Shown here in pieces: positions 12,045 to 31,021 of a DNA stretch of 31,021 nt. Source of the stretch: a virus. The notes beneath the pieces were generated by a model that did no database searches, was not told the origin of the DNA, and was given only the letters and a program-made list of their open reading frames with translations. Both the position numbers and the translations under genes were made by a program. The stretch covers positions 1 to 31,021 of the IMG/VR virus record IMGVR_UViG_3300032342_001681; one strand, given 5' to 3'. Positions within the stretch are counted from its first letter, which is position 1. Each line of letters starts with the position of its first letter.

Positions 12045-12073
12045 ATGGTACCCCAAGTTACTATTAATGTCAA
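12045..12073 (-). promoter_or_regulatory. Sigma70-like promoter for the PD-(D/E)XK gene, leaderless layout
   Basis: On the minus strand TTGACA (12068-12073) is followed after 17 nt by TACCAT (12045-12050); the ATG at 12038 begins 6 nt after the -10 box. The -35 is perfect and the -10 matches four of six. Transcription from here would start at or next to the start codon. Confidence 0.5.
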
Positions 12074-12086
12074 TCTACTTGGGGTA
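12049..12086 (-). repeat. Perfect 10-bp inverted repeat (hairpin) before nuclease gene
   Basis: TACCCCAAGT (12049-12058) is exactly complementary to ACTTGGGGTA (12077-12086), with an 18-nt loop. It covers the stop codon of the upstream glycosyltransferase and the only G-rich, Shine-Dalgarno-like stretch before the ATG at 12038. In read-through mRNA it could hide the ribosome site. No U-tract follows, so it is not a standard terminator. Confidence 0.75.
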
Positions 12087-12878
12087 TACTAAATAAGGGT
12101 AAATATTAAAGACTAAGGATTGAAACTTTCTTGTATATTTATACCAAAGGTAATAATCTTGCCCCATGGGATTTCCCAATTCCTTAATATAACGTCTTGT
12201 CTCCCCCTCAACGTCTACAATACAAAATTGTCTCAATTCTGGAAATTCTAATTGGGCCATACAAGAAAAATCCCATGGATTTGTTGCCTCCAAGTTTCCC
12301 CTTCTGTGGTAAATCTTTTCCATCTCATCCTGATCTTCAGGAGTAATCACTCCATGTGGGAAACCCCCCAGATCCTCATAGACACTTCTATGAAAGATAA
12401 ATGTTCCATTTACAATTCTACCCTTACCAAAAACTTCATGTCCAACTTCCAATTTGGGCACATCCCAAGGCCCACGATGTACTACTCTACCATCCTTATG
12501 AACATACATGTTACCAAAGTTAAACATCTTATATTCAGGATTTTCATTGATCATCTTTTCACACAGTTCCAAATAATATGGCGAATACTGGTCATCTGAG
12601 TCCAAGAAGCAAAACCACTCCCCCGTGGCTCTTTCAAAGGCATCGTGGTAACTGTTTATCCTTTCCAAATGGGCATCTCTTTTCCAGTAGATTAACTTTG
12701 GATACATTGCCTTGATCTGCTCCAATTCCTCAAAAACAACAGGTGATCCATCATCTATTACAATATGCTCAAAGTCTTCGAATGTTTGATTGCCTACACT
12801 ATGAATTGCCCGAAGTAAACCCTGTTTACGCTGGGGAGAATGAAGGTAGACTGGAGTCAGAACACTAAAGCGAGGCAT
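12075..12878 (-). CDS. Family 2 glycosyltransferase
   Basis: 267 aa and the most canonical GT2 in the window. FSVLTPVYLHS (4-14), HIVIDDGSP (38-46), ERATGEWFCFLDSDDQYSPY (about 82-101, DSDD metal site). It then has GTFIFHRSVYEDLGGF and a TPEDQDE segment, in the place of the usual ED catalytic-base motif. ATG at 12878 follows a 39-nt gap after the coiled-coil gene; no clear Shine-Dalgarno is present. Soluble; sugar unknown. Confidence 0.9.
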   Translation of the reverse strand: MPRFSVLTPVYLHSPQRKQGLLRAIHSVGNQTFEDFEHIVIDDGSPVVFEELEQIKAMYPKLIYWKRDAHLERINSYHDAFERATGEWFCFLDSDDQYSPYYLELCEKMINENPEYKMFNFGNMYVHKDGRVVHRGPWDVPKLEVGHEVFGKGRIVNGTFIFHRSVYEDLGGFPHGVITPEDQDEMEKIYHRRGNLEATNPWDFSCMAQLEFPELRQFCIVDVEGETRRYIKELGNPMGQDYYLWYKYTRKFQSLVFNIYPYLVYPK

Positions 12879-12917
12879 TGTTTTTTAATCTTCTTATAAT
12901 CGGCAGGGTTGCTCATG

Positions 12918-13862
12918 TTATTTATTAAACTTTTTGTGGCAGAATGGACATTCTATCTGTTCATCAAGTAATTTTTGTATTCTTATTTTTTCTAGTTTCT
13001 CAGCTTCAAGTTTTTCTTTTTCTTGAGCTAGTTTTTTTTCTGCTTTTTCTTTTTCTACTTTTGCCAATTCCTCTATCCTAACCCTCTCCACCTCCGCTCT
13101 GGCTCGTTCGTCTGCTAATTCCTTATCTGCTTTTTCTTTAGCTACCCGAGCCAACCTATCCGCCTCCTCTTTTGCCTTTTTTGCCAATTCCTCAACCAAT
13201 AGCCTGTCGGCTTCTGCCTTTGCTCTCTGCTCCGCCAAGACTCTTTCCGCCTTCTCCCTAGCTATTTCTGCCAGCCGGTCCGATTCCTCTTTGGCTTTTC
13301 TTGCAGCTTCTTCCGCCATAATCCTTTCAGCCTCCGCTTTTGCCCGTTCCTCGGCCATCTTTTTTTCTCTAGCTTCCACTTCTTCCTTTAACTTTATATT
13401 TTCTAGCCTAATTCTCTCCTGCTCTTTTCTGTCCGCTTCTTCTTTTGCCAGTCTTTCCTCTTCGGCTTTTTTCTCATCTTCGATTCTTTTTTCTTCCGCC
13501 AATCTCAACTCTTTTAATTCTGTAAACCGTTCTTGTTTATCTAGGTATTCTTCAATCGGCACAATTAACGCCTTTAACACATTGGCAATTCCGTCAATCG
13601 CCTTCCCCTCCCTCAAAGCCTGTTCTTTTAGTTCCACCCTCGCTTTCTCTATTCCAATCCTTTTATCCCTTAAAAATAGCCTGCCGACTCGAGCCATTTG
13701 CATCTCTACTTTATTTGTTTCATCAACAACAACAATATCTCCTGCTTTCTTTTCCCATTCAGCCGCTATCTCAAAATAACCAGTAAATTTATCGAGAATG
13801 TATTGAGCCTTGGTCATTTCAAGACCGCTTTCATTGACAATTAATTGTAATTTATTATCCAT
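12918..13862 (-). CDS. Long coiled-coil protein with 40-residue repeats and CxxC tail
   Basis: 314 aa, no firm family. Residues 1-110 are mixed helix and resemble the N-terminal part of DUF1351-like phage proteins found near recombination genes (tentative). Residues 113-300 are a continuous Glu/Lys/Ala/Arg coiled coil, with three tandem 40-residue units starting at Ala170, Ala210 and Ala250. The end ECPFCHKKFNK gives a single CxxC that could bind zinc only with a partner, for example in a dimer. ATG at 13862 lies 5 nt after the HExxH gene. It is probably a rod-like structural or scaffolding factor; function unknown. Confidence 0.8.
   Translation of the reverse strand: MDNKLQLIVNESGLEMTKAQYILDKFTGYFEIAAEWEKKAGDIVVVDETNKVEMQMARVGRLFLRDKRIGIEKARVELKEQALREGKAIDGIANVLKALIVPIEEYLDKQERFTELKELRLAEEKRIEDEKKAEEERLAKEEADRKEQERIRLENIKLKEEVEAREKKMAEERAKAEAERIMAEEAARKAKEESDRLAEIAREKAERVLAEQRAKAEADRLLVEELAKKAKEEADRLARVAKEKADKELADERARAEVERVRIEELAKVEKEKAEKKLAQEKEKLEAEKLEKIRIQKLLDEQIECPFCHKKFNK
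12996..13355 (-). repeat. Three tandem 120-bp coding repeats
   Basis: These encode residues 170-289 of the coiled-coil protein. Units begin AEERAKAEAERIMAEEAARK, AEQRAKAEADRLLVEELAKK and ADERARAEVERVRIEELAKV. The first two are most alike, the third has drifted. Confidence 0.75.
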
Positions 13863-13867
13863 ATTAT

Positions 13868-14206
13868 TTATTTTTCTTTAATTTCATTTTTCTTTATGTA
13901 CTTTTCCATCGCAACAACTGCCTGTTCTTCTGTCATCCCACAAGCATGAGCATACTCGTGGTACACCAATTCCCTCAATCTCTTGTCATTAAATTTCTCC
14001 CTTTTAATAAAATCCAGGTAAAAAGTGATTGTTCTGGTTCCAGGTTCATGTGAGGCAAAAACCAACAACTTACCGTGTTGCATTATTGTGTTTTCATCGA
14101 ACACGAACCATAAATCACCAACTTTTGCTTTTATTTCTTCAGGGACCAACATATGGAGTTGGTAAATTATTTCCTGCAACTTATTAATCAAGACTTGTTT
14201 GGTCAT
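13868..14206 (-). CDS. Small HExxH zincin-like protein
   Basis: 112 aa. The C-terminal half has LRELVYHEYAHACGMTEEQA: HEYAH (83-87) is the zinc-metallopeptidase signature, and Glu93 or Glu94 could be a third ligand, as in gluzincins. The N-terminal 70 residues contain beta strands (DLWFVFDENT, KLLVFASHE, TITFYLDFI) fitting a minimal zincin such as the SprT/WSS1-like or putative-metallopeptidase group. There is no signal peptide, so it is cytosolic or virion-associated. It overlaps the dehydrogenase gene upstream by 4 nt. Since no other protease appears after the portal/MuF genes, it may act in virion maturation, but this is only a guess. Confidence 0.68.
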   Translation of the reverse strand: MTKQVLINKLQEIIYQLHMLVPEEIKAKVGDLWFVFDENTIMQHGKLLVFASHEPGTRTITFYLDFIKREKFNDKRLRELVYHEYAHACGMTEEQAVVAMEKYIKKNEIKEK

Positions 14207-14976
14207 TTGCTTTTCTTAATCAGTTCTTTATTTATCTCTTGCATCGTATCAATGAGGGGTAAATCAAATTTACCAGCAAAGGCTTCTATGTCCTTGGGCA
14301 AACAATTACCGCCAAATCCCCTTTTTTGGTTGTGCCACACATTCCACCCATTTTTACTTCCCCATTTATGAGATTCCAAGACTTCCCGAACTTGGTCATA
14401 GTTTGCACCTACTTCTTTAGCCACATCCCACAATTGGTTTGCCATTGTCACTTTTAAGGCAAAGAACGAGTTCATGGAGTACTTAATTAACTCTGCCGTA
14501 GTTGGACTGCACTTAATCACCTTTTTCGTTAACATCATCGAATTATTTATAAATAGTTGGGTAACTTTTTCCTTTAGGAGGATGTCCCTGGCTCCCACCA
14601 CCAGAAATTCGGGGTTTAAGGCATCTTCCAGGGCCGTAGATTCAGTTAAAAACTCAGGAACATGAGCAATATTAAGTCCATACAGTTTCGAAAGTTTGTC
14701 CGTAGTCCCGGGAAGGATGGTTGATCTGATAATTACCGATATAGACGGAGCATCAGTCTTTATCATCCCCAACCATTTGTCTATCGCCGACAAGTCCTGT
14801 TTACCGTTTACGGTAGGTGAAGGAAGGCAAAGAATAACAAAAGAAGAACTTTTTAAATGGTAGGAAAGGTTCTCCCGATCAAAGTCTATATCAAACATCC
14901 TAACCCCATCAGTGTAAAACAACGATGAGGTCGCTTTTCCAGTCACGCCATTTCCAGCGATCACTACTCTTGCCAT
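14203..14976 (-). CDS. UDP-glucose/GDP-mannose dehydrogenase family protein lacking the UDP-binding domain
   Basis: 257 aa from ATG at 14976 (an extension to 15006 overlaps the upstream gene). The NAD-binding Rossmann motif is VVIAGNGVTGKA (4-15); STILPGTTDKL (85-95), HVPEFLTESTALEDALNPEF (105-124), AELIKYSMNSFFALKVTMAN (161-180) and GFGGNCLPKDIEAF (220-233, catalytic Cys225) are all family signatures. It should oxidise a sugar-nucleotide C6 to the uronic acid. Family members are usually 390-450 aa; here the protein ends about 30 residues after the catalytic loop, so the C-terminal substrate-binding domain is absent. It may need a partner or accept another substrate. It lies between two glyco-cassette genes. 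Confidence 0.87.
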   Translation of the reverse strand: MARVVIAGNGVTGKATSSLFYTDGVRMFDIDFDRENLSYHLKSSSFVILCLPSPTVNGKQDLSAIDKWLGMIKTDAPSISVIIRSTILPGTTDKLSKLYGLNIAHVPEFLTESTALEDALNPEFLVVGARDILLKEKVTQLFINNSMMLTKKVIKCSPTTAELIKYSMNSFFALKVTMANQLWDVAKEVGANYDQVREVLESHKWGSKNGWNVWHNQKRGFGGNCLPKDIEAFAGKFDLPLIDTMQEINKELIKKSK

Positions 14977-14977
14977 A

Positions 14978-16276
14978 TTATTTCTCAGAAAAAAATAGTG
15001 GTTCAATTTCTTCTCGGAAAGTAAATGAAGGATTCCTGAACTTTCTTAATCTCATCTGTTGAGCTAATACCATATTGTTCTGCAACTCATATTTAATTCT
15101 CATGGCTACATCTGTAAAGTAACCCCTCTCATCACTGTAAGTCGTATTGATGTCTCCATCCAAACCATCAAATCCAATGTTTGCCGAAAACTGTTTATAA
15201 ACAGCATGTTCGCCGTAGATGTCACGGAATGGAGCAAAGTCATGATTCAACACTAACAAGTTTCCCAATAAGGCCGCCTCCTGAGTAATTAAAGAATAAG
15301 TCTCACTCTTAGAAGGCATAATAAATACATTAGATAGTTCAAACAGATCATGCACCACCTTATGTGGTACACTTGTGTGCCAAGATTCATGGTATTCGGA
15401 TGTAAATGTTAGTTCAAAATCATTCAATCCCCAATCGATACCCAATTTCTTTAGTTCCTCACGATATGTTACTTTGTCACCACCGGTAGAATGAAAGTCC
15501 ACAATTACCACCCTGACTATCATATTCAGTTTCTTCAATTGAGCCATAGTCTTGATTACTACCTCTACCTGCTTCCCCCTGTCTAACCTGATCGGATACA
15601 CCGCTATCGCATCTGCGTAGAGCATATTCTTTTCCATTACTAGTTGAGTCACCAGTTCATCCCATTTACAGAAACTGGGCATGTTGGTTGAATGATGAAC
15701 TACTTTAACCTCATCTTCTTCGTATCCAAAGTTTCTAGCCACTCTCGGAATAGAATAAGCATTAGGAAAAATTACAAAACTATTGGGAAACTTTTTTGAG
15801 ATTATATCGTAATAAGCATCTCCCTGAGAAAGTTCTTTACCCAAGGTATAAGGGGAAGTAGCCGAATGTACCCAATGAAGCCACCTGATCTTAGAAACAT
15901 GATCATCGTCTTTAATAGCCTGTCGTGCTGCAACATTCAGCTTCAAACTTTCAGGTTGATATATAAGATCGTGGGTAAAAACTACATCGACATCTTTCAG
16001 ATTCTCTATTAAGGATTTCTTCAGTTTTTCCACATCCTCTTTGAATGTCTTGTCGATTGACTCGTTAATGTAATTACTACAAGGCACTATAGGAATATAT
16101 CTGAGTTCAACTTCAGGGAAAAGATAAACATCCTCTTTCCGAAATCCTTCTTTAACAATAACGACTGGCTTGTAACCATTTCCGACCAACATTCGTACCT
16201 GTTCAGCCACAACCCCACACAAACTATAGGCTTCATCGTGAGATGTAAAAGTTGTAAGTATACAAACTTTTTTCAT
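14978..16276 (-). CDS. GT4-like GT-B glycosyltransferase
   Basis: 432 aa. The N-terminal domain starts KKVCILTTFTSHDEAYSLCG and the C-terminal domain has IAVYPIRLDRGKQVEVVIK (the PxRLDxGK donor motif of GT4) and VFIMPSKSETYSLITQEAAL (E-x7-E equivalent). No membrane helices are seen. ATG at 16276 has a Shine-Dalgarno AAGGAG, 8 nt upstream, that lies inside the small upstream gene, and overlaps that gene's stop by 4 nt, so its translation should depend on the small gene. This is the first glycosyltransferase after the head genes in transcription order. Sugar unknown. Confidence 0.88.
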   Translation of the reverse strand: MKKVCILTTFTSHDEAYSLCGVVAEQVRMLVGNGYKPVVIVKEGFRKEDVYLFPEVELRYIPIVPCSNYINESIDKTFKEDVEKLKKSLIENLKDVDVVFTHDLIYQPESLKLNVAARQAIKDDDHVSKIRWLHWVHSATSPYTLGKELSQGDAYYDIISKKFPNSFVIFPNAYSIPRVARNFGYEEDEVKVVHHSTNMPSFCKWDELVTQLVMEKNMLYADAIAVYPIRLDRGKQVEVVIKTMAQLKKLNMIVRVVIVDFHSTGGDKVTYREELKKLGIDWGLNDFELTFTSEYHESWHTSVPHKVVHDLFELSNVFIMPSKSETYSLITQEAALLGNLLVLNHDFAPFRDIYGEHAVYKQFSANIGFDGLDGDINTTYSDERGYFTDVAMRIKYELQNNMVLAQQMRLRKFRNPSFTFREEIEPLFFSEK

Positions 16277-16410
16277 TTAATTTTCTCCTTTTCTAACTTC
16301 TCCACTTTCTTCGCTAATAAAATAAATAAATCTTGAACTTCAGTCTTTCCTGCTATAATTTTTACCCCCAAATATTTTTCTAACCAGTTTTTCTCTCTCA
16401 ATGCAGTCAT
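16273..16410 (-). CDS. 45-residue helical protein translated ahead of a glycosyltransferase
   Basis: ATG at 16410, stop TGA at 16273-16275 overlapping the ATG of the glycosyltransferase by 4 nt. The peptide begins MTALREKNWLEKYLGV and ends in a charged amphipathic helix (LLAKKVEKLEKEKIK) that could form a short coiled coil. No family recognised. The overlap, the Shine-Dalgarno for the next gene lying in its last codons, and a good promoter just upstream support it as a real gene. It may be a leader peptide or a partner subunit for the glycosyltransferase. Confidence 0.65.
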   Translation of the reverse strand: MTALREKNWLEKYLGVKIIAGKTEVQDLFILLAKKVEKLEKEKIK

Positions 16411-16418
16411 GTTTATCT

Positions 16419-16447
16419 ATTGTATCATTAACAACATTTTTAATCAA
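16419..16447 (-). promoter_or_regulatory. Sigma70-like promoter opening the glyco-cassette
   Basis: Minus strand: TTGATT (16442-16447), 17-nt spacer, TACAAT (16419-16424), then only 8 nt before the ATG at 16410. The predicted start of transcription is within about 2 nt of the start codon, so the mRNA would be leaderless. It sits in a 40-nt non-coding gap, rare in this window. Confidence 0.6.
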
Positions 16448-16450
16448 GAG

Positions 16451-16810: not shown

Positions 16811-16811
16811 A

Positions 16812-19350: not shown

Positions 19351-21085
19351 TTCTGATACCTCCCATTCTTACTAATTTTGCCCATTCAGATAAAGAGCTC
19401 GGAACGAAATCTTTTTTCTCACCCATCGCATATGAATCAAGCAATGCATGTCCAATCGTATCTTTTTGAAAAGCCAAACGATTGTAATTTGCTGCATGTA
19501 AATAGTGATCAGGGCCCCGCTCCATCCATCTAGCTGTTGGTTGACCTGTTCTGGGATTAATCTCCGTCACTCTAATTGATGCGGTCATCTGCTGGTAAAA
19601 TTCAGGAACATACTTAGCATTAGATGGTAATTCCATCTGTTCGTTCTGAATTTCACTAACAAGATAATCCAACGATATTGTTCTGTCAACATAAACCTCC
19701 GCCTTAAAATCATCAAACATGTAATAATTTTGGATATCAAATTTACGAGTTGGGTAATATGCGGCAAAGACTCTTCCCCTATATTTTTCTATTAATTCCT
19801 TAACCTTTCTGGTTTCTGGTTTTGCATCAATAACCAACATTTGGATATTGTATTTGTCCATTAATGCTTCCACCGAGTCCATTGGCCCCAAAAAATTACT
19901 GACTGTTCCAACCCAAACATATCTGGCCTTACCATCAATCTTCTTACTAATTACAATGTGGATTTTTTCTCCCACATCAGCTCCCGCCACACACCCAGTA
20001 ACATCAACTGGAATCGTGTAATTCCTTACGCAGTTATCCAATTCGGACAACAACAGGCTCTTCCCCTCAGCTTCATATGGCAACCCCAGAACCTGATTAT
20101 AAAATTGTTGCATGGCTGAAAAACCTGAATTTTTAGCTTTCTCATAACTTACAATTAACTCATCTACCGTTCTTCTGGGATTGTATATCCCGTTAATCTT
20201 GTAGCCGTGTATTTCTTTATTTTCAGGTTTCTGTGACACCCACCTGCCCATCTTTAATCTGTCAATATATTTTTTACATTGTTTACAAACCGTTTTTCTT
20301 TCATCAAAGTCCACATTAAACAAAAAATCCAGTTCCTGCTCTAATCCACAATCGGTACAAGTAAGCATCCAAAACCGTTGATCACTTTGCATAAATACTT
20401 CATTAACCCCCCTGCCTGGAAATGTTGGTGTCGAAGCCTCCCTTCTCCATTTAAGAGTCGAGTGGAGAAGTCTTTTATCTATATAGGGTACATGATCCTG
20501 GATAAACCTATCTCTCTCATCAAGAACGATAAGGTCTGCATCGACAGATATAATCTGTTGCTGGTTTTGACTTCCCCTTAAATATAAGAATGCGTTTCTT
20601 ATTTGTTTCAAACCAACCTTTTGTATCTTACGGGCCGAATCGACATTTCTCTCTCTTTTCTCATCAGCACTTAATACCCCAGTAATTCTTGAGAGATAGT
20701 CTGATAGGTTAAAAACTGGTTCTAACCTGGCCTGGACAAAATCGTTTAATTGCGCCGAAGTTGGGAAAACATACAATGTATTCTTCCCCAACCTATCACA
20801 AACCCAAACAGCCTCCGAAACAAGTCTTTCAGACAGGCCCATCTGTGCAGCTTTTTGAAAAACAATATTTGGAAATTGATCTTTATAGATATCAATCAAG
20901 TATTTATGGTCATCAAAATTCAGAGGGTCACCCCTCGAAGTTACCCAAACAGCTTGAATCCAAGTGTAATAATCATCCAGTTCCTCCTGATTCAATTTCT
21001 GTTTCGCCTTGGATAACAATACCCCCTCTAGCTCTTCTAGCTCTTTCTCGTTTAACGTTTGCAGCAAGTCTAAGGATGTCTTCAT
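19340..21085 (-). CDS. Terminase large subunit, GpA family
   Basis: 581 aa. It packages DNA using an ATPase and a nuclease. FQKAAQMGLSERLVSE (about 76-90) is the deviant Walker A of GpA-type terminases and DLIVLDERDRF (184-194) the Walker B with catalytic Glu. CTDC (243-246) and CKQC (267-270) form the GpA zinc finger. The nuclease acidic residues lie in GADVGEK (Asp370), MLVIDAKPE (Asp420) and ERGPDHYLHAANY (Asp526, His527). ATG at 21085 makes it overlap the small subunit by 113 nt; TTG at residue 32 would shorten this, but no start is clearly better. Length fits the family. Confidence 0.93.
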   Translation of the reverse strand: MKTSLDLLQTLNEKELEELEGVLLSKAKQKLNQEELDDYYTWIQAVWVTSRGDPLNFDDHKYLIDIYKDQFPNIVFQKAAQMGLSERLVSEAVWVCDRLGKNTLYVFPTSAQLNDFVQARLEPVFNLSDYLSRITGVLSADEKRERNVDSARKIQKVGLKQIRNAFLYLRGSQNQQQIISVDADLIVLDERDRFIQDHVPYIDKRLLHSTLKWRREASTPTFPGRGVNEVFMQSDQRFWMLTCTDCGLEQELDFLFNVDFDERKTVCKQCKKYIDRLKMGRWVSQKPENKEIHGYKINGIYNPRRTVDELIVSYEKAKNSGFSAMQQFYNQVLGLPYEAEGKSLLLSELDNCVRNYTIPVDVTGCVAGADVGEKIHIVISKKIDGKARYVWVGTVSNFLGPMDSVEALMDKYNIQMLVIDAKPETRKVKELIEKYRGRVFAAYYPTRKFDIQNYYMFDDFKAEVYVDRTISLDYLVSEIQNEQMELPSNAKYVPEFYQQMTASIRVTEINPRTGQPTARWMERGPDHYLHAANYNRLAFQKDTIGHALLDSYAMGEKKDFVPSSLSEWAKLVRMGGIRIGN

Positions 21086-21569
21086 AATTTTGGCCGTCTA
21101 ACATTTCATCATATCTTGTTTTAGGAAGATTAACATTTACTTGAGTTAGATTTTGGCCACCTCCTTTCTCACTAATGCCTAAAGCTGCTCTTTCTTCCTG
21201 AAGACCAGACAATAATAATTTTCTTGCTTCTCCAACATCTTCTGGTTTTAAATCTTTTAACCCTTCTGCCCCTTTAAGTTGCATCATCCTCGCCAGTTGT
21301 GCTTGTCTTGCTCTTATTAATTCAAATTCGTCTACCTTTGACTGAAGCAAGTTACTCGTTACTTTCTTTGCAGCTGTGGAAATTAATTCTTGTTTTTCTT
21401 TTACCCAACCCTTCATTTTTTTTGACATATACTGACTCGCCTTATCATTTGGTAACTTTTTATCCCGCCTGAACTGGCTAAGATTCAAACCTGGACTTTG
21501 AAAAAACTCCAACTTTAAAGCATCCCAATTATATTTGTGTCTAGGTTCTATTTGTTTATCATCACTCAT
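20973..21569 (-). CDS. Terminase small subunit-like protein
   Basis: 198 aa, located directly before TerL. The N-terminus YNWDALKLEFFQSPGLNLSQ then FRRDKKLPNDKASQYM looks like a helix-turn-helix for recognising packaging-site DNA. The centre (KEKQELISTAAKKVTSNLLQ to ARKLLLSGLQEERAALGISE) is helical and suits the oligomerisation domain; the tail is Arg- and Gly-rich. The final 113 nt also encode the TerL N-terminus. The call rests on position and fold layout rather than on a strong motif. Confidence 0.72.
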   Translation of the reverse strand: MSDDKQIEPRHKYNWDALKLEFFQSPGLNLSQFRRDKKLPNDKASQYMSKKMKGWVKEKQELISTAAKKVTSNLLQSKVDEFELIRARQAQLARMMQLKGAEGLKDLKPEDVGEARKLLLSGLQEERAALGISEKGGGQNLTQVNVNLPKTRYDEMLDGQNYEDILRLAANVKRERARRARGGIVIQGETEIESGGTG

Positions 21570-22213
21570 AAAATTATTAGTTTCATTAATTTATTTACAT
21601 CTGGATTTCTACCAAAATATTTTAAGGCTTTAACATAATCAGATTCTTCTTCAAATACGAATGAGATTCTTAGCCTTTCTTTTTTTGGTTCATAAGACTT
21701 AGCCAGTCTTTTAGCGTCATCTGATTCAATCACCAAAGATAATCGATCTTCTATTAATTCCCTTCTAAGATCTTCTGAAATGTTATTTATATCATCAGCG
21801 GATATTTTCAAATATGTTGACATTGATTTTTCACTTTCTGGTAATAGTTTAGCCAATATTTCTATTTCTTCCTCAAAGTTTTGATACAATTCTGCTATTA
21901 ATCGTGATCTCTTCCCGATATCATCAATTCCATGTAAAGAATTTAGAGTGGCTAACACTAAATTAGCATCTTTTTCTGTTAAGTCCCAAACTTCGCACCA
22001 AACTTCTTTGTGTCCCAACTCCTTAAGTACCTGATGTCTACTATGACCATCCAATAAAAGGTAACCATTATCACGTTTTAAAACAACTAATGATGGATAC
22101 TGATTAGTTCTTTGGATATTCTCTCTAAGTTTATCCAACTGTTCCAAACTCAATTCATTTGGATTTAGAAAATTCTGGTTGATCTGATTGATCAGTACTT
22201 TTTGTGCTTGCAT
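21566..22213 (-). CDS. ParB/Srx-domain protein beside the terminase
   Basis: 215 aa. YPSLVVLKRDNGYLLLDGHS followed by RHQVLKELG (about 39-67) is the ParB box I/II region, with the GHSR arginine motif. A helical C-terminal domain (about 95-215) could bind DNA. ParB-like proteins often precede TerS in phages and may bind DNA with CTP or act as nicking enzymes. ATG at 22213 has AGGAGG 9 nt upstream and lies 59 nt inside the end of the glycosyltransferase gene; it overlaps TerS by 4 nt. Role in packaging or DNA handling is inferred. Confidence 0.83.
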   Translation of the reverse strand: MQAQKVLINQINQNFLNPNELSLEQLDKLRENIQRTNQYPSLVVLKRDNGYLLLDGHSRHQVLKELGHKEVWCEVWDLTEKDANLVLATLNSLHGIDDIGKRSRLIAELYQNFEEEIEILAKLLPESEKSMSTYLKISADDINNISEDLRRELIEDRLSLVIESDDAKRLAKSYEPKKERLRISFVFEEESDYVKALKYFGRNPDVNKLMKLIIL

Positions 22214-23636
22214 TTTTCCTTTCCTCCTCTAACTTATTATAAACCATTTGGAAATAAGTATCCCACTCTTTGGCTATATTAGTCCAACTATACTTCTGTA
22301 CCCATTCATAAGCCCGATCTACAATTTTTTGAGCCTTTTCCTTATTATCATAAGCCCAGATCAATTTTTTCACAGCATCATCTACATTGGTTAACGGCCT
22401 AACTCTCTCATAATCAACCGGACCAAAGGTAGTCCATTCAGAAGAATTAGATCCAGCCTTAACGGGGATTCCTCTGATTTCCGCAGTTTCCAATTGTGTC
22501 ACATCTTCGTAATTATTACCTTGAGTATTAAATAACTCCGGAATTGAAGTAATGTTCGGAGCAATGTTTAAAACCTTTGCAGACATCGCTTCAGTTATTG
22601 GTAATCCCCAACCTTCTCCATTAGAAGCAGAAATTTGGACATCCATCACGTTGTATATTTTGTTCAATACATCTATAGGATATCCTTGATTTTCACTAAA
22701 GTTACCGGGAAAGATCCAGTCTTTGCCTAATTCTAAATTAAAATTCCTTGCATACTCGGATAATGAACCCCAGACATCCTGCTCTTTGGCATGTATATAT
22801 AACATCGAATCTGGTCTTCTTTTTTGAAATTCTTTAAATATCCTCATTGCTCTGGGTATATCTTTACGCATTTGGTTTCTAGCCACAACTCCCACAATGT
22901 ATGTTGTTTCTGGTTCTATTCTTGCCCTCTGGAAATACATCTTCTTAAACTCCATTTTTTCTTTTTCTGGTATTGGGTGAAAAGCTGTCGTGTCTGTACC
23001 ATGGTAAATTACATCCAAATTAAATTTCATTGGCTTAGATAACTTTTGGTTTGATTTTTCTATCTCAGCCTTACCATATTCAGTATAAGCTACCGAATAA
23101 TCAGCTAATCCTATGGCATGTTCTACCCAATTCTCTTTTATATATGAATCAATTGGCCAATACGAAACCGTTTTAACCCAATTTTGAGGTGGTAGTTTCT
23201 CCTTGTATAATTTAAGAAGTTCCACTATTACATCCATCATTCCCTTATCTGGAGATAACACTGGTTGTTCAAAAATAAATGGATCGTTTAAAGTAAAAAT
23301 TATGTCCCACGGAGGTTTAAGATTATTGTCTGCTCCCCTGACAATGTTCAAAAATCTCAGTCTGCCATAAAAATCGTCTGTTTGGCCAGGTATCATTGCC
23401 GGTAGAATTTTGTAAGGATATTTTACCGGATCTGGGTCAAGAAATCCTTGGTCGTTAATGCCAAAAATTTGTATATCATATCTACCTGTCTTGGCTAAAT
23501 TATTAAAAATACCTCGCATCACGGTCCCAAATCCAGTACTGCAACGTGTTGAATCCCCATAGGCCAACACTCTTATTTTTTTATTATTGTCTATTGTTTT
23601 ATTCTTGTGTGTATTCCTTGTCATATTAAAAGACAT
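22155..23636 (-). CDS. GT4-like GT-B glycosyltransferase
   Basis: 493 aa. Opening IRVLAYGDSTRCSTGFGTVM (about 21-40) is the N-terminal acceptor domain with a Gly-rich loop; VIYHGTDTTAFHP (209-221) the interdomain NG-D motif; VGVVARNQMRKDIPRAM the donor strand; and NGEGWGLPITEAM (339-351) the E-x7-E donor site. The last 25 residues are hydrophilic and overlap the ParB gene. It stands between two glycosyltransferase genes and the packaging block, so it is probably expressed with the virion genes. ATG at 23636 or at 23624 (MTRNTHK) could be the start. Sugar unknown. Confidence 0.88.
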   Translation of the reverse strand: MSFNMTRNTHKNKTIDNNKKIRVLAYGDSTRCSTGFGTVMRGIFNNLAKTGRYDIQIFGINDQGFLDPDPVKYPYKILPAMIPGQTDDFYGRLRFLNIVRGADNNLKPPWDIIFTLNDPFIFEQPVLSPDKGMMDVIVELLKLYKEKLPPQNWVKTVSYWPIDSYIKENWVEHAIGLADYSVAYTEYGKAEIEKSNQKLSKPMKFNLDVIYHGTDTTAFHPIPEKEKMEFKKMYFQRARIEPETTYIVGVVARNQMRKDIPRAMRIFKEFQKRRPDSMLYIHAKEQDVWGSLSEYARNFNLELGKDWIFPGNFSENQGYPIDVLNKIYNVMDVQISASNGEGWGLPITEAMSAKVLNIAPNITSIPELFNTQGNNYEDVTQLETAEIRGIPVKAGSNSSEWTTFGPVDYERVRPLTNVDDAVKKLIWAYDNKEKAQKIVDRAYEWVQKYSWTNIAKEWDTYFQMVYNKLEEERKNASTKSTDQSDQPEFSKSK

Positions 23637-23648
23637 AATTTTTTATAA

Positions 23649-24455
23649 CTACCAATTCTTCAAATCTCTTTTTGGGTCATTAAAAGGATGTTTGTAACCT
23701 TGTTCCAATATACTTTCCGGTGGTGCAAACACTTTATCATGAAAATCTATTCCCCACTTAATACCAATATATAATCGATTATCTTCATATGTCCTTTTGT
23801 TCTTATTATACAATTCATCATCTACTTTAATAGTCCTGGAACCATAGTGGTAAAACTTAGCAGCCGCAGTTTTACCAGCCTTATTGCCAGAGAGTAATAT
23901 CCTGTAATGATAATCTCCGTCTTCCATATAACCCAACTTGATATTTTCATCAAACCACCCTACAGTATCAATTGTCTTCTGATTAACCATAAAGTAAGAA
24001 AAGTGGGGATGATCATCAAACGACCAATTTATATCAGCCTCTTTAATTCCATTCAAAGTTCTTATGTCTATCCATTCCGAAGCTGTCCATAAGACAAACT
24101 CCGAATGCATATCTGCAAATGTAATTAAATTATCTACGCATTTATGGTGAAGAACTATATCGTTATTAATAACCATTACATATTCACAACCATCTGCCAA
24201 AGACTTCTTTATACCCATATTCCAAGCTTTTCCTACTGAATTATCTTTTAACCCTTCTATTACCTCATAACCCTTAACCGATTCGTGCAAACTAAAGTTA
24301 CTCTTACTGGGATAATATTCCGGAAGCGAAAAATTATTAATTAGATATATATTGAGATCATGTTCTTTAGACTGGATTGATTCTATTGTCTGTTTAGTAA
24401 AGTCAAAAAGTATATCTGAAGAAATATATACAGGGCAAACAATTCCTATTTTCAT
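23649..24455 (-). CDS. Family 2 glycosyltransferase
   Basis: 268 aa from ATG at 24455 (MKIGIVCPVYISSD); a longer frame to 24491 would run through the -10 and -35 boxes described at 24463-24491. IYLINNFS is the second strand, DNSVGKAWNMGIKKSLADGC the helix before the metal site, and YVMVINNDIVLHHKC (about 92-106) the DxD-like site; YMEDGDYHYRILLSG carries the ED catalytic-base motif. No Shine-Dalgarno is visible; instead a promoter lies 7 nt upstream. Soluble; donor unknown. Confidence 0.88.
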   Translation of the reverse strand: MKIGIVCPVYISSDILFDFTKQTIESIQSKEHDLNIYLINNFSLPEYYPSKSNFSLHESVKGYEVIEGLKDNSVGKAWNMGIKKSLADGCEYVMVINNDIVLHHKCVDNLITFADMHSEFVLWTASEWIDIRTLNGIKEADINWSFDDHPHFSYFMVNQKTIDTVGWFDENIKLGYMEDGDYHYRILLSGNKAGKTAAAKFYHYGSRTIKVDDELYNKNKRTYEDNRLYIGIKWGIDFHDKVFAPPESILEQGYKHPFNDPKRDLKNW

Positions 24456-24462: not shown

Positions 24463-24491
24463 TTTATAACATATCTATTATGTAAAATCAA
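24463..24491 (-). promoter_or_regulatory. Extended -10 promoter, leaderless layout
   Basis: Minus strand: TTGATT (24486-24491), 17-nt spacer ending TGT, TATAAA (24463-24468, giving TGnTATAAA), and 7 nt to the ATG at 24455. This is the best promoter on the minus strand of the window. Confidence 0.65.
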
Positions 24492-26415: not shown

Positions 26416-26422
26416 ATCAATT

Positions 26423-26743: not shown

Positions 26744-26991
26744 TTCTGGTTAGTTTCTAAAAACGAAATAAAATCAGCCGTTTTTTCAAAATCTAAGTTT
26801 GTAACTAAATCACGAGCAGTTTGATCGTTATAAATGCTTTTTAGATACGGGAGTACCTTATTAATTGTTTTTTTAGCATTCTTTTCAGTATGTGGTACAA
26901 AATACTTACGAATCTTATTATATTTTTCCAAAACTGATTTATCAGATTCCAAAACTTTCATTACTCTTCGTCTTGCAACTCTAATATTCAT
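26740..26991 (-). CDS. Hypothetical small helical protein
   Basis: 83 aa, not recognised. It is basic at the N-terminus (MNIRVARRRVMKVLESDKSV) and helical throughout, with an acidic C-terminus (FEKTADFISFLETNQK). The start 1 nt after the upstream stop and the 4-nt overlap with the next gene support coding. Its content suggests a DNA- or protein-binding helical bundle. Confidence 0.6.
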   Translation of the reverse strand: MNIRVARRRVMKVLESDKSVLEKYNKIRKYFVPHTEKNAKKTINKVLPYLKSIYNDQTARDLVTNLDFEKTADFISFLETNQK

Positions 26992-26992
26992 A

Positions 26993-27181
26993 TTAGTTCA
27001 CTTCACCCACTTTCCTTCTCTCTCCTTTAATTAAGTCACCAAATTCATCGAATGATTCGTTCTTACCACATTCTTCACAAAGAACTGCATAAAACCTTTT
27101 GTCCCAATCAACATATAATACCGTGCGGTGCCGAACAGTCAACTTCTCACAAGCAAGACATACAAGTTTAAAGCGTTTCAT
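26993..27181 (-). CDS. Small zinc-ribbon protein
   Basis: 62 aa. CLAC (8-11) and CEEC (35-38) frame a beta hairpin (TVLYVDWDKRFYAVL), giving a typical four-cysteine zinc ribbon, then an acidic and basic tail. It is one of five zinc-binding small proteins clustered between 26.4 and 29.0 kb. Function unknown; such proteins often bind DNA, RNA or transcription factors in phages. Confidence 0.7.
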   Translation of the reverse strand: MKRFKLVCLACEKLTVRHRTVLYVDWDKRFYAVLCEECGKNESFDEFGDLIKGERRKVGEVN

Positions 27182-27188
27182 AAGTTAA

Positions 27189-27464
27189 TTACTTATCAAT
27201 ACTATTCCACCAATCCTTAACAGCATCCTTATCCTTGACCACCCTCCGTGGTTTATCCTCTTTTTTTTCTGGATATAATTTTGGCCAAGGTTTGTTTTGA
27301 GTTTCTGGATCAGCTTGCCAAGAAACAATACTTACTACATCTTCTTCGGTCATATCTAATTGGTGCGAACCACTTAAATGCATAAGTACCATGGGGGTAA
27401 TAACCCAAATTTGGCCCATATGTTCTACATTACAAGTGATAATTGGACATCTTAATTTAGCCAT
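27189..27464 (-). CDS. Small Cys2His2-type protein
   Basis: 91 aa. Cys6, Cys11, His29 and His34 are spaced as C-x4-C-x17-H-x4-H, a loose single zinc site. The second half is Lys/Pro/Trp-rich (PWPKLYPEKKEDKPRR) and ends in DAVKDWWNSIDK. Not recognised otherwise. ATG at 27464 has no Shine-Dalgarno but an extended -10 box 9 nt upstream. Confidence 0.62.
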   Translation of the reverse strand: MAKLRCPIITCNVEHMGQIWVITPMVLMHLSGSHQLDMTEEDVVSIVSWQADPETQNKPWPKLYPEKKEDKPRRVVKDKDAVKDWWNSIDK

Positions 27465-27473
27465 ATCTTATTG

Positions 27474-27482
27474 TATATATCA
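27474..27482 (-). promoter_or_regulatory. Extended -10 element (TGnTATATA), leaderless layout
   Basis: Minus strand TGATATATA lies 9 nt before ATG at 27464, in a 23-nt gap. No good -35 is visible, so it would depend on the extended -10. Weaker than the other promoters listed. Confidence 0.35.
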
Positions 27483-27487
27483 TAACA

Positions 27488-27664
27488 TTATTTCCTAAAT
27501 TTAACAAGAGGATCAGCATTCTTCATAATTATATTCCTGTCTCTTGAAAAAAGTTTTTTCCGTACCAAGTCACTTATAAATCCAGACCTGGTATCGTGAA
27601 CAGCCTTGCAATACCCATCTATTTTTTTTAGAAGTTCATCTGGAATAGAGATGTTAATTCTCAT
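27488..27664 (-). CDS. Ribbon-helix-helix (CopG-like) DNA-binding protein
   Basis: 58 aa. MRINISIPDELLKKIDGYCK gives the ribbon strand and first helix, DTRSGFISDLVRKKL the second helix with the turn. This is a minimal RHH repressor that binds palindromic DNA as a dimer. The tail RDRNIIMKNADPLVKFRK is basic. It overlaps the zinc-finger gene upstream by 11 nt. It may regulate this phage's own promoters; the 7-bp palindrome at 24485-24502 is one candidate site, but no link is shown. Confidence 0.82.
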   Translation of the reverse strand: MRINISIPDELLKKIDGYCKAVHDTRSGFISDLVRKKLFSRDRNIIMKNADPLVKFRK

Positions 27665-27935
27665 AAGTTAAATGCTTTTTAATAAAATGGCGTTTAGCTC
27701 CCATGCGGGAACTAAAGGTTGCTCCACAAGTCCGACAAACTAATTTTTTGGGATATACGGAAAACCGTTTACCGTATTCTTTTTCCATGTATCTCTGGTG
27801 ATACTCTCTTTTGAGTTTATTTGCACAGATTTTGCAATAGTACTTGTATCCCCGCTTGAAATGTTTAGCCGTTCCAAATTCACTCACTGGTTTGACCAAT
27901 TCACACCTAGTACAAGTCAGAGTGTCATTTTCCAT
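27654..27935 (-). CDS. Two-zinc-site protein, intact paralogue
   Basis: 93 aa. An N-terminal ribbon has Cys8, Cys11, Cys34, Cys37 in the LTCTRCELVKPVSEF...YYCKIC pattern seen in phage HNH/endonuclease VII-like and other small zinc proteins, and a C-terminal classical C2H2 finger has Cys67, Cys70, His83, His88 (LVCRTCGATF). It aligns without gaps with the protein at 28740-29021. Strong Shine-Dalgarno GAGGAGG precedes the ATG. It overlaps the exonuclease gene by 11 nt. Likely binds DNA; role unknown. Confidence 0.75.
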   Translation of the reverse strand: MENDTLTCTRCELVKPVSEFGTAKHFKRGYKYYCKICANKLKREYHQRYMEKEYGKRFSVYPKKLVCRTCGATFSSRMGAKRHFIKKHLTYEN

Positions 27936-28743
27936 TTTTCTCTTCCTCCTCTAATAATTTGATACTTAACCTATCTGGATAAACTATATTCTTTGGCTTT
28001 GGGTTAGGATTCTCCTCTTTCCAGATTGCTTGGGCATACTCAAATAGACGGTAAAGGTGTTCTGGTTCTTCAACCATGTCCAATTTCCACCCTTCTCCTT
28101 GGATTTGTTTACCCGTCTTGTCCGGTCCACGAGTGGCTGCCCTCAAATGGAAACAGCCCATCCTCTCTATAGCAAGGTTATTAGCCTTATCCTTAGCAAC
28201 CACCAGATTCCACAACTTTTGATAAGCAACAGCCTGTATCTTGTTTGCTTTGTAAATTCCACCCCCCGATTTCCAGTCAATATACCAGACCTTACCATCA
28301 AGTCGGCAAACATAGTCTAGGGTTCCGCCAAAACCCAGTTCAGGGGAAATTAAACTCATTTCCACAGCAATCGTTTCCGGTTTGTATGTTTTATAAAAAT
28401 CTACAAACTTAAGTACCATGATCCATTCATCTAAGGTATAATTTTCTTTACGTTCCCATAAATCACCATCCACCTGTTCTTCAAGCATCCACAATACCTC
28501 TTCGCCTTTCAGGAACTTAGCAATAGCATCGTGAATGTGCGTTCCCTGGTCTCCGGCTCTTTTCATTACTTCATCAGCATTAGAACCGAGATCTTTTAAC
28601 CATTGGTTAAAGCCAAATCCACGAGGCCATACTTCTAGGATAGTCGTTACTGATGGATAGTACTGTTGTGTTTTATCATCAAAATAAAACCTCTCATCAC
28701 TCATGGTTATCTGCTGGATGTTGTTATTGTGAAAAATCTTCAT
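27925..28743 (-). CDS. PD-(D/E)XK exonuclease, RecB/Cas4-like
   Basis: 272 aa. RAGDQGTHIHDAIAKFL (about 62-78) is the GTxxH motif, GFGGTLDYVCRLDGK (137-151) the catalytic Asp strand, YIDWKSGGGIYKANKIQAVA (154-173) the D-W-K-S strand and QxxxY motif. This is the RecB-like nuclease fold often found as a phage single-strand or 5' exonuclease. Start ATG at 28743 overlaps the upstream zinc-protein gene by 4 nt; ATG at residue 14 (MSDERFYF) is an alternative. Flanked by the two paralogous zinc proteins, which may assist it. Likely in phage DNA recombination or end processing. Confidence 0.87.
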   Translation of the reverse strand: MKIFHNNNIQQITMSDERFYFDDKTQQYYPSVTTILEVWPRGFGFNQWLKDLGSNADEVMKRAGDQGTHIHDAIAKFLKGEEVLWMLEEQVDGDLWERKENYTLDEWIMVLKFVDFYKTYKPETIAVEMSLISPELGFGGTLDYVCRLDGKVWYIDWKSGGGIYKANKIQAVAYQKLWNLVVAKDKANNLAIERMGCFHLRAATRGPDKTGKQIQGEGWKLDMVEEPEHLYRLFEYAQAIWKEENPNPKPKNIVYPDRLSIKLLEEEEKNGK

Positions 28744-29021
28744 GTCTTTTGTGTTAAATGATTTTTAATAAAATGTCTTTTTGCCCTTAAACTAGTACCC
28801 AAAGTAGTTCCATAAGTACGGCAAACCAATTTGTGAGAGTATACAGCAAATCGATGTAACAATTCTTTTTCTCTTTTATTTGTGTTACTTTTCATTTGAA
28901 TTGTATTTTCACAACTTTTGCAATAATAATCATATCCCCGTTTTAGTCTTCTTTTGACATAAAAGTCACTAATCGGTTTAACCAGTTCGCATTTCGAACA
29001 AGTGAGAGTATCAGATTTCAT
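28740..29021 (-). CDS. Two-zinc-site protein, paralogue with lost finger ligand
   Basis: 93 aa, aligning end to end with 27654-27935. The N-terminal ribbon keeps Cys8, Cys11, Cys34 and Cys37. In the C2H2 half Cys67 and both histidines remain, but the second cysteine is Tyr70 (LVCRTYGTTL), and the finger-core Phe is Leu, so the finger should no longer fold normally. The ATG at 29021 lacks a Shine-Dalgarno and follows a stem-loop. It may be a specialised or decaying copy. Confidence 0.75.
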   Translation of the reverse strand: MKSDTLTCSKCELVKPISDFYVKRRLKRGYDYYCKSCENTIQMKSNTNKREKELLHRFAVYSHKLVCRTYGTTLGTSLRAKRHFIKNHLTQKT

Positions 29022-29031
29022 AATCTTTATT

Positions 29032-29071
29032 GAAGGCAGGAAAGACCTTGTCCAGAGATTGTCCTGCCTTC
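29032..29071. repeat. Perfect 10-bp stem-loop between genes
   Basis: GAAGGCAGGA (29032-29041) pairs with TCCTGCCTTC (29062-29071) around a 20-nt loop, in the 57-nt gap between the secreted protein and the zinc protein. No U-tract follows on either strand, so it is not a standard terminator. It might protect mRNA ends, be a processing site or bind a protein. Confidence 0.75.
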
Positions 29072-29078
29072 TAAAAAA

Positions 29079-29981
29079 TTACCTGACTAGTTCCACATGG
29101 GAAAAGCCATAAGTAACTGGCTTCGGCCCATCAACTACAGTAGCAATAGCAATGCTTCCATCACTACAACCGTTGTGCTGATAAACTCCGAAGTCGTAAG
29201 CAGTATTAGGATCAAGAGCCTGAATAGTGAAAGAGTTCCAGTCAAAAGTTTTTAGATCTCTGACTGAGTTCTCATTCCAACCATCATGCCCTGATACTCG
29301 ATAAACAATAGTAGCTTCATCTCCTGCTGTTCTAAACCATGTTACAGTCGCTTCAGTGGGCGTTCTGTGAACAAATAAAGCTTTAGGAAGCAAGACAACT
29401 TTTCCATTCGGACACATCCAAGCTGAAGGCTGTTCACCACAACCATTACAAGAGCCAGGATCTGGCTGTCTTTTTTCTTCCATTGGAGTTGGAGTCACTT
29501 CCGGTTCACAAGCAATAAGTTCAGTTTCGCATTTAACTTCCCTTATTTCTTTGTCAGCTGGAACAGAAACTTCTGCTATCCATTTACGACAAGAAACTTC
29601 ATTCTGGATAAATCCTTCAGGACAACCAGTAGGAGCTTTATGTTCTGGATGAATAGAGTTGTTATTTCTATGACACCTTTCATTCCAATTACCACTATTT
29701 TGAGCATGGTAATTAAGAGGACAAATAGGATCTGTATAATCCCAGTGTGCAGCAATGAAAGTTCCAATACCGCACTGGTAGTTATCACCACCTACAACAC
29801 AAGTCCTTTCTTGGTTTTTAGTTCCAACAGTTGTATCACACTTAGCAATACAAACAGTGGTATCATGCCATTCTCCCCATCGAGTATGAAGTACACTAGC
29901 TTTTACTGGAAATCCCCAGATAAAAAGACCTGCCAAAATACCTAAAACTAGGAATAAAAGATATATTTTGATATATTTCAT
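29079..29981 (-). CDS. Secreted protein with TSP1-like Cys segment and fibronectin-III domain
   Basis: 300 aa from ATG at 29981, with GGGGGGTG as Shine-Dalgarno (a TTG at 29999 is less likely). Residues 4-25 are a hydrophobic export segment followed by GFPVKASV, a possible cleavage region. Residues 34-70 (WGEWHDTTVCIAKCDTTVGT, QERTC) resemble a thrombospondin-1 repeat; more cysteines follow to residue 160. A TPTP linker and a second Cys cluster (SCNGCG) lead to a fibronectin-III domain (about 200-290; ATVTWFRTAGDEATIVYRVS, LDPNTAYDFGVYQHNGC). It should act at the host surface, as an adhesin, receptor mask or superinfection factor. Such domains are uncommon in phage morons. Confidence 0.78.
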   Translation of the reverse strand: MKYIKIYLLFLVLGILAGLFIWGFPVKASVLHTRWGEWHDTTVCIAKCDTTVGTKNQERTCVVGGDNYQCGIGTFIAAHWDYTDPICPLNYHAQNSGNWNERCHRNNNSIHPEHKAPTGCPEGFIQNEVSCRKWIAEVSVPADKEIREVKCETELIACEPEVTPTPMEEKRQPDPGSCNGCGEQPSAWMCPNGKVVLLPKALFVHRTPTEATVTWFRTAGDEATIVYRVSGHDGWNENSVRDLKTFDWNSFTIQALDPNTAYDFGVYQHNGCSDGSIAIATVVDGPKPVTYGFSHVELVR

Positions 29982-30014
29982 TATTTTTTCACCCCCCAAC
30001 TTTATTTTTAATAA

Positions 30015-30443
30015 TTAAAAACCCGTCACTCCCTTCAACTTGAAAGAAGTTACTTCATCGTCCATAACAATAGCTTTGTATTTCCAAATGCCATTTGATT
30101 CCAAGTTGTTTAAATTAGCCATAGCACTTCCAACTTGGCTTCCATCTTTGTCATAAAGATTAAATTGAATTTGGACATAGCCATATTGTTTGGTTGAATT
30201 ATTTCTGACAGTTCCGGAAACATATTTCAAATAACCCTCCTTAACCAATGAACTAGTTAAAACTTCCAGTTTTTCTTTTTCAACAACCGGAGTGACCTTA
30301 GTTTCCACAGTTTCTACAGTTTTAATACTTTTAACTGTTTCAACCGTTGTATTCACTGTGGTTGTAGATTTTGAAGTAAGACCTGAACCAACAGCAAAAG
30401 CAATCATTGAAATACCAAGCATTATAAAAATCTTTTTTAGCAT
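30015..30443 (-). CDS. Exported FxLYD-domain-like protein
   Basis: 142 aa from ATG at 30443, with AAGGTG as Shine-Dalgarno; an in-frame GTG at 30455 is an alternative. Residues 1-20 are a signal or anchor segment (KKIFIMLGISMIAFAVGS), residues 23-55 a Thr/Val-rich linker. The second half (YLKYVSGTVRNNSTKQYGYV, QIQFNLYDKDGSQVGSAMAN) has the F-x-L-Y-D strand that names PF14345, an extracellular domain. Function unknown; it probably sits at the cell surface next to the immunity protein. Confidence 0.75.
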   Translation of the reverse strand: MLKKIFIMLGISMIAFAVGSGLTSKSTTTVNTTVETVKSIKTVETVETKVTPVVEKEKLEVLTSSLVKEGYLKYVSGTVRNNSTKQYGYVQIQFNLYDKDGSQVGSAMANLNNLESNGIWKYKAIVMDDEVTSFKLKGVTGF

Positions 30444-30465
30444 GTTTTTATTCACCTTCTTTCAG

Positions 30466-30633
30466 TTAATCTTTCATCAAACTCCAAATCAAGCTAATGA
30501 CCCACCCAATGAAAGTCCAACCTAAAAATAAATTTGTGACAAAAATGGCAGTGGCATTCTTTTTACCACGACCCACAATGGCCGGTATAAAGTAAATGAA
30601 GAGAACTATTATAAAATATATCAATCCTTCCAT
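30466..30633 (-). CDS. Superinfection immunity-like membrane protein
   Basis: 55 aa: two membrane helices, LIYFIIVLFIYFIPAIVG (4-21) and TNLFLGWTFIGWVISLIWSL (33-52), split by a basic turn (GRGKKNA). The YFIPAI and LGWT-IGW pattern is that of the Imm_superinfect family (PF14373, T4 Imm-related), which stops later phages' DNA from entering. ATG at 30633 has GGGAGGGG 8 nt upstream. It is encoded in the same leftward unit as two secreted proteins. The family match is by eye but quite characteristic. Confidence 0.82.
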   Translation of the reverse strand: MEGLIYFIIVLFIYFIPAIVGRGKKNATAIFVTNLFLGWTFIGWVISLIWSLMKD

Positions 30634-30635
30634 AG

Positions 30636-30743
30636 TTAATCCCCTCCCGCCAAATAGAGTTTCTGCCCACTATCTCCAGAAGATTCCGAAGTAATAGCCG
30701 GAGGGGCAAACTTTGATAGATCTCCATAAAACTCTAATTTCAT
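30636..30743 (-). CDS. 35-residue peptide at the head of the leftward operon
   Basis: From ATG at 30743: MKLEFYGDLSKFAPP to KLYLAGGD, TAA at 30636-30638, 2 nt before the immunity gene. An upstream ATG at 30752 (38 aa) is possible, but lies directly against the -10 box. No family recognised. Leaderless translation, if the promoter is right. The Shine-Dalgarno of the immunity gene lies in its last codons, so it may be a leader peptide. Confidence 0.5.
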   Translation of the reverse strand: MKLEFYGDLSKFAPPAITSESSGDSGQKLYLAGGD

Positions 30744-30752
30744 TCTACACAT

Positions 30753-30780
30753 AGTATACACAAGTTTTATAAAAATACAA
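30753..30780 (-). promoter_or_regulatory. Leftward promoter of the divergent region
   Basis: Minus strand TTGTAT (30775-30780), 16-nt spacer, TATACT (30753-30758); ATG at 30743 follows 9 nt later. It would drive the small peptide, immunity and surface-protein genes. Confidence 0.55.
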
Positions 30781-30795
30781 TACCAAGATTACCTA

Positions 30796-30824
30796 TTGAC
30801 ACAATTCACAATATGGAATATTCT
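30796..30824 (+). promoter_or_regulatory. Rightward promoter of the divergent region
   Basis: TTGACA (30796-30801), 17-nt spacer, TATTCT (30819-30824), then GTG at 30832 after 7 nt. This is the only plus-strand promoter seen and the two -35 boxes of the divergent pair are 15 nt apart. Confidence 0.55.
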
Positions 30825-30831
30825 TCATAAA

Positions 30832-31021
30832 GTGAATAATCAAGAAAGTGACTACTGGACACCATCTGGACTTTATCTTTGCGGAATAAATGATAATGGA
30901 GATTTGACAATAAGTAAAAACTCATATCACAAAATAATGGTAAAAATAGGCGAATCGTTCCCAGATAAAAACTCAGATTTTATTTTTAATGCGTTTATTG
31001 ATTATTGGCAATCGCATATTC
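30832..31021 (+). CDS. Rightward gene, 3' end beyond the window, unrecognised
   Basis: 63 codons from GTG at 30832, open to the edge: NNQESDYWTPSGLYLCGIND, then SYHKIMVKIGESFPD and FNAFIDYWQSHI. All three minus-strand frames are broken here, so plus-strand coding is favoured. The frame is open further upstream; TTG at 30796 would add 12 residues (LTQFTIWNILHK), but would place the start on the -35 box. No family recognised. It marks a change of transcription direction, so a different module probably starts here. Confidence 0.5.
   Translation, partial: MNNQESDYWTPSGLYLCGINDNGDLTISKNSYHKIMVKIGESFPDKNSDFIFNAFIDYWQSHI

Follow-up and report, generated by a model that had tools for sequence, protein, structure and literature searches.

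The sequence analysed here, IMGVR_UViG_3300032342_001681, is a single uncultivated-phage contig of 31,021 bases (37% GC), taken at its full length and called the window below. Its genes lie almost throughout on the minus strand and include those for a terminase, a portal protein, head morphogenesis, an exonuclease, a nucleotide-sugar dehydrogenase, methyltransferases and a long series of glycosyltransferases. An original prediction had singled out six sites in it where the -10 box of a promoter lies 6 to 9 nucleotides (nt) before a start codon, a layout expected to yield leaderless mRNAs. The sequences and coordinates of all six boxes are confirmed, sites 1 to 5 on the minus strand and site 6 on the plus strand, and the short distance to the start holds at sites 1, 2, 3, 5 and 6, failing at site 4. 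We conclude that promoters of the host sigma70 type probably give leaderless or near-leaderless mRNAs for some genes of this phage. Comparisons were made with relatives having a terminase (63-71% identity) or a portal (49-65%) in common with the window (L002-L011 and L019-L023), one of which, G004, is 93.9 kb long, and with other viral contigs.

Promoters were graded with a sigma70 score that combines the -35 box, the spacer, the -10 box and TG. Site 1 (12045..12073, minus strand) is strong at 10.9 bits, with TTGACA at 12073-12068, a 17-nt spacer, TACCAT at 12050-12045 and 6 nt to the ATG of a 158-aa gene (11562..12038, minus strand). Box positions and their conservation can be read directly from the orthologues: the window has TTGACA-17-TACCAT-GTACTC-ATG, L024 (65% identical over the aligned part of the protein) has TTGACA-17-TATAAT-GTACTC-ATG, and L010 (59% identical) has TTGACA-16-TATGAT-AGTACC-ATG. 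Scores in the three are 10.9, 14.2 and 12.2 bits, all at 6 nt from the ATG, and both orthologues keep the boxes and the distance while mostly not keeping the intervening sequence. One could read the conserved block as coding, with TTG/TTG/ATG, 18 nt upstream, as the start codon and with Tyr-His/Asn/Asp encoded by the "-10": these 18 nt (TTG GGG TAC CAT GTA CTC ATG and equivalents) are in frame and alignable in the three orthologues, and third-base changes are synonymous at two codons. We regard this as very unlikely, as a perfect TTGACA is kept further upstream, beyond any such extension and across an unconserved spacer, no Shine-Dalgarno precedes TTG/TTG/ATG, and the bases that vary coincide with those at which a -10 tolerates change. 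The gene itself is, by way of its L024 orthologue, endonuclease-like, of the PDDEXK_5 kind of PD-(D/E)XK homing-endonuclease-like proteins. L024 matches PF11645 (PDDEXK_5) at 31.9 bits (cut-off 26.1), L010 falls below the cut-off and the window copy has no match in Pfam; a profile of the protein found no convincing relative in the PDB, and its AlphaFold model was too poor for use (predicted local distance difference test, pLDDT, 39.8).

The second conserved case is site 3 (24463..24491, minus strand; TTGATT-17-TATAAA, TG-extended), a moderate match of 7.7 bits that stands 7 nt before the ATG of a predicted GT2-like glycosyltransferase gene (23649..24455, minus strand; PHROG 29879, E = 4.9e-16, and just under the cut-off for Pfam GT2). 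Its orthologue in L003 (59% protein identity) has TTGATT-17-TGT-TATAAA at 8 nt from the ATG. Homologues in G004 and L023 seem instead to carry leaders. Box position is conserved in orthologues at sites 1 and 3; it is variable at site 2 and not kept at site 4, and this conservation supports leaderless or near-leaderless initiation, as predicted from sequence, at sites 1 and 3.

Site 2 (16419..16447, minus strand; TTGATT-17-TACAAT preceded by TG) is again strong, with 10.5 bits and 8 nt to the ATG of a putative 45-aa open reading frame (ORF; 16273..16410, minus strand) that has no family matches and is ATGA-coupled to a glycosyltransferase gene (14978-16276). L019, L013 (G004), L017, L011 and L005 likewise carry a promoter between the corresponding genes. 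From its -10 to the ATG there are 11 nt in L019, 17 nt in G004 and roughly 29-38 nt in L011 and L017, the last two with AAGAAAGGA. Such distances raise the possibility that promoters are real but functional starts lie further downstream, so that mRNAs have normal leaders; at site 2 the promoter would then serve the glycosyltransferase at 16276, which carries AAAAGGAG, and leave the 45-aa ORF untranslated, much as the L011 and L017 promoters serve the glycosyltransferase itself. We hold this to be somewhat unlikely. In L019 the glycosyltransferase ATG is only 11 nt from the -10, the end of the window's 45-aa ORF overlaps the next gene by ATGA and, at site 1, L010 offers no further start codon ahead of the conserved domain. 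Leaderless or near-leaderless initiation is likely for site 2, as it is for site 6.

Transcription start points could be calibrated within the phage group. A scan of the window and relatives for TAYNWT-Nk-CAATA gave nine intergenic matches at k = 5 and at most two at any other spacing, except for k = 10, where six matches reflect TATGTTATAAT overlap. The usual position of a sigma70 initiator, C(-1)A(+1), is 7 nt after the -10. Together with the group motif, -10-N5-CAATA, this led us to set +1 at 7 nt after the -10 as an internal ruler, from which we infer the real 5' ends. Predicted +1 positions are 12038 at site 1 (the A of the ATG, leader 0 nt), 16412 at site 2 (2 nt), 24456 at site 3 (1 nt) and 27472 at site 4 (about 8 nt), all on the minus strand, and 30831 on the plus strand at site 6 (1 nt before the GTG); for site 5 the leader is 3 nt. 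Relatives show a broader range. In G004, small genes have promoters of 9.7-15.1 bits at 6, 7, 9, 11 and 14 nt before their ATG, and further promoters stand at 17-60 nt. Leaders of tens of nt also follow some promoters of relatives, a Shine-Dalgarno being present in certain cases (L011, L017) and lacking in others. A promoter-pattern search of viral contigs returned G004, L032 (a near copy of part of G004) and one further contig with a long -10-to-ATG distance.

The remaining sites are of uneven quality. At site 4, the box as first read (27474-27482, ending 9 nt from the ATG) was mis-assigned and scores 0.2 bits. The corrected promoter (27479..27507, minus strand; TTGTTA-17-TATGAT with TG, -10 at 27479-27484) scores 10.4 bits and stands 14 nt from the ATG of a 91-aa gene with no assigned function (27189..27464, minus strand); its initiator, CAATA, fits the group motif, and the site is compatible with an 8-nt leader. 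No relative of this gene was found in viral contigs. Immediately upstream, 27488-27664 encodes a 58-aa protein resembling ribbon-helix-helix or HicB-antitoxin proteins. Site 5 (30753..30780, minus strand; TTGTAT-16-TATACT) is weak, with 7.4 bits and 9 nt to the ATG of a 36-aa ORF (30636-30743), and here chance remains likely. Site 6 (30796..30824, plus strand; TTGACA-17-TATTCT) is divergent and the best plus-strand match at 11.4 bits, lying 7 nt before the GTG of an open ORF (30832..31020, plus strand) cut by the contig end, with 63 codons visible. Neither the site 5 nor the site 6 ORF has a homologue among the relatives retrieved.

A rival view is that -10-like boxes occur near many starts in a sequence of 37% GC and that the six sites are a selection of these. 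Comparison with shuffled sequence, the check named in the original prediction, gave two answers. With a loose rule (-10 matching at least 4/6, -35 at least 3/6, box 6-9 nt from the start), 6 of 45 starts match, exactly the six sites; dinucleotide shuffles give 5.81 ± 2.21 (P = 0.52), and 77 of 701 internal ATGs (11%) match as well. The loose count equals that of shuffles, and by itself is therefore no evidence; at this stringency the outcome is the one that the original prediction had named as refuting it. When a match had to score 9 bits or more and lie 4-10 nt from one of the same 45 starts (strict rule), three starts match (12038, 16410 and +30832) against 0.18 in shuffles, none of 200 shuffles reaches three, and only 1 of 701 internal ATGs matches. 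This count is flattered, as two of its three starts, those of the 45-aa ORF and of the GTG ORF that runs off the contig, owe their selection to the box, so we do not rely on it and take orthologue conservation as the cleaner evidence. The signal emerged only when -35 and -10 were scored jointly; spacing histograms built from bare -10 boxes and automatically called starts lack any peak at 4-9 nt. Across the window and its relatives, intergenic sequence is richer in strong promoters than coding sequence, by a factor of about 7 at 10 bits, 14 at 11 and 42 at 12.

Several further observations weigh, like the loose count, against leaderless initiation from sigma70-type promoters. Promoter-like matches across the region number 49 against 63.6 in shuffles, hence without excess, and at other relatives' starts only 1 of 99 has a match of at least 9 bits at 4-10 nt (P = 0.23), no significant excess either. 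The score matrices are E. coli-like and hand-set, and the host may follow other promoter rules. Leaders vary from about 5 to 35 nt among site 2 orthologues, the window's 45-aa ORF being only putative, and the site 4 homologue in G004 (L014; 35% identical) has AGGAGA upstream and no promoter box. Chance nevertheless appears quite improbable as an account of the whole: it draws on the loose count, the internal ATGs and the lack of overall enrichment, but the strict score exceeds shuffles, and chance explains neither the initiator spacing shared across the group nor what orthologues conserve at sites 1 and 3.

The six starts were also said to lack a convincing Shine-Dalgarno, and they do. This is unremarkable, because only 9 of the 45 starts have a strong one (pairing of -8 kcal/mol or better with CCUCCUUU), against 2.95 in shuffles; strong sequences thus exist elsewhere in the window, as had been claimed, yet most genes do without and the supposed contrast fails. 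Eight of the nine belong to close-packed genes. The idea of Shine-Dalgarno initiation within operons does not survive, since a strong one is lacking in 24 of the 32 genes whose gap is at most 5 nt, and genes inside operons mostly show 4-base ATGA overlaps or abutting stop and start codons; 14 genes have an exact 4-nt overlap with the previous gene (ATGA). The main device within operons looks like stop-start coupling. Leaderless or near-leaderless initiation fares better, being backed by orthologues at sites 1 and 3, likely at sites 2 and 6 and compatible with site 4 at an 8-nt leader, but some promoters in relatives have long leaders. Modes of initiation are mixed in this phage group instead of being split into leaderless heads and Shine-Dalgarno interiors, and the original interpretation is over-general.

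The reading that we favour is as follows. Promoters of the ordinary sigma70 type (TTGAnn-17-TAnnnT, in many cases TG-extended), which the host polymerase presumably recognises, would in a sizeable minority of transcription units be placed directly against the start codon. The transcript would begin at the A of the ATG or 1-3 nt ahead of it (sites 1, 2, 3 and probably 6), and about 8 nt ahead at site 4. Such mRNAs would have no room for a Shine-Dalgarno, and we infer that initiation would be by ribosomes binding the 5'-terminal AUG. The setting would be a phage generally poor in Shine-Dalgarno sequences, a scarcity plain from its starts, in which coupling to the stop codon ahead prevails among downstream genes.

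Site 1 has a further feature, a perfect inverted repeat (12049..12086, minus strand) with 10-bp arms at 12077-12086 and 12049-12058 and an 18-nt loop that holds the -35 box. The window copy folds as RNA at -20.7 kcal/mol (z = -4.15; 0 of 200 shuffles as good), and a second, small hairpin spans the ATG. An intrinsic terminator is ruled out by the 18-nt loop and by the lack of a T run after it. RNA that starts at the local promoter would be missing the 5' arm of each hairpin. In T4 I-TevI, segB and Aeh1 mobE, homing endonucleases are controlled by a hairpin plus a promoter, with the Shine-Dalgarno sequestered (PMC2988022). As in these, the endonuclease-like gene of site 1 lies within a long transcription unit, and the stable hairpin would form only on read-through RNA, the local transcript being without its 5' arm. 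Unlike in these, the hairpin sequesters no good Shine-Dalgarno (its 3' arm has just a GGGG, -5.0 kcal/mol, at too great a distance from the ATG), the promoter, sigma70-like where T4 uses a late promoter, would give a leaderless local transcript, and the hairpin is absent from both orthologues, L024 and L010. Given the lack of a good Shine-Dalgarno and the missing hairpin in orthologues, site 1 at most works like the T4 system, and membership in it is not established. A hairpin-gated leaderless promoter, where read-through RNA is silenced by the 10-bp hairpin and the one over the AUG and RNA from the internal promoter begins at the AUG and is translated, is an idea that we put forward tentatively and think unlikely; if true, it would be the I-TevI logic minus the Shine-Dalgarno.

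Leaderless initiation is an established, though minority, mode of translation. A TA-like box about 10-12 nt before the start is the accepted signature of leaderless, TA-led bacterial genes (Zheng et al., 2011, PMC3160421), and a -10 next to the ORF is found in Deinococcus-Thermus (PMC12340547). A TANNNT-like box at this distance is present at sites 1, 2, 5 and 6, and at site 3 with TATAAA, but not at site 4 as described. The likeness extends to TG extension in AT-rich genomes and the lack of a Shine-Dalgarno; unlike those surveys of cellular genomes, ours concerns an uncultivated phage with few cases, most of which also have a good -35 box. Among phages, most middle and late mRNAs of Thermus phage phiYS40 are reported to be leaderless (reviewed in PMC3594737). 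Both phages would have to direct the host ribosome to leaderless transcripts, predicted here from sequence and in a phage group where leaders of 0 to more than 30 nt coexist. The cI mRNA of phage lambda is leaderless (PMC3160421, PMC9031893), and there too a phage promoter ends at the AUG of a phage gene; cI is a repressor, whereas the genes here encode an endonuclease-like protein, a glycosyltransferase and small proteins without assigned function. A literature search on leaderless genes in candidate-phyla bacteria yielded nothing usable.

No host is claimed, since alignment of the terminase against genome contigs gave no relatives and that of a glycosyltransferase gave only loci of 26-41% identity, in metagenome-assembled genomes of several lineages. 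In a phage collection, terminases among the best matches listed are only about 25-28% identical. Neither the window nor the relatives yielded any tRNA genes; in L005 the conserved promoter is followed by a possible tRNA-like stretch (~7080-7210), without an ARAGORN call.

Other features of the window and relatives were noted in passing. Window positions 13001-14000 have a strong local skew (GC -0.47, AT -0.40) across gene 12918-13862, unlike the remaining window. The homologue of the window glycosyltransferase 12075-12878 in L013 (381-2462; G004 20360-22486) is interrupted at residue 94 by about 450 codons within one open frame, which is intein-like. Inteins are also probable in L008, where the portal frame (3014-7066) has about 1,350 codons (574 in the window) and matches in separate pieces, and in L011, where the terminase match (1049-3634) is about 290 codons over the expected size. 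Variants of TTCGACAAGCTCAGGGTAAAC or TTCGGTTACACTCACTATAAAT recur as a repeated element shortly before the ATG in several relatives' gene leaders (G004 near 9284, 44002, 41190 on the minus strand and 52490 on the plus strand; L017 near 5175 on the minus strand). Between genes 29079-29981 and 28740-29021, a terminator-like inverted repeat (29026-29077; 16-nt arms, 88%, 20-nt loop, T-rich flank) directly precedes an ATG for which no promoter was found.

For part of the listed sites the layout is real, and it adds a new phage group to those with an already established strategy. Since phages with leaderless transcripts have been described before, what is chiefly gained is a further natural set whose start-point motif (-10-N5-CAATA) can be tested, to which site 1 adds one gene with a hairpin-promoter layout. 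If our reading is true, gene finders that rely on Shine-Dalgarno sequences will assign wrong starts to genes of this phage group, and such phages must depend on recognition of a 5'-terminal AUG for some of their genes.

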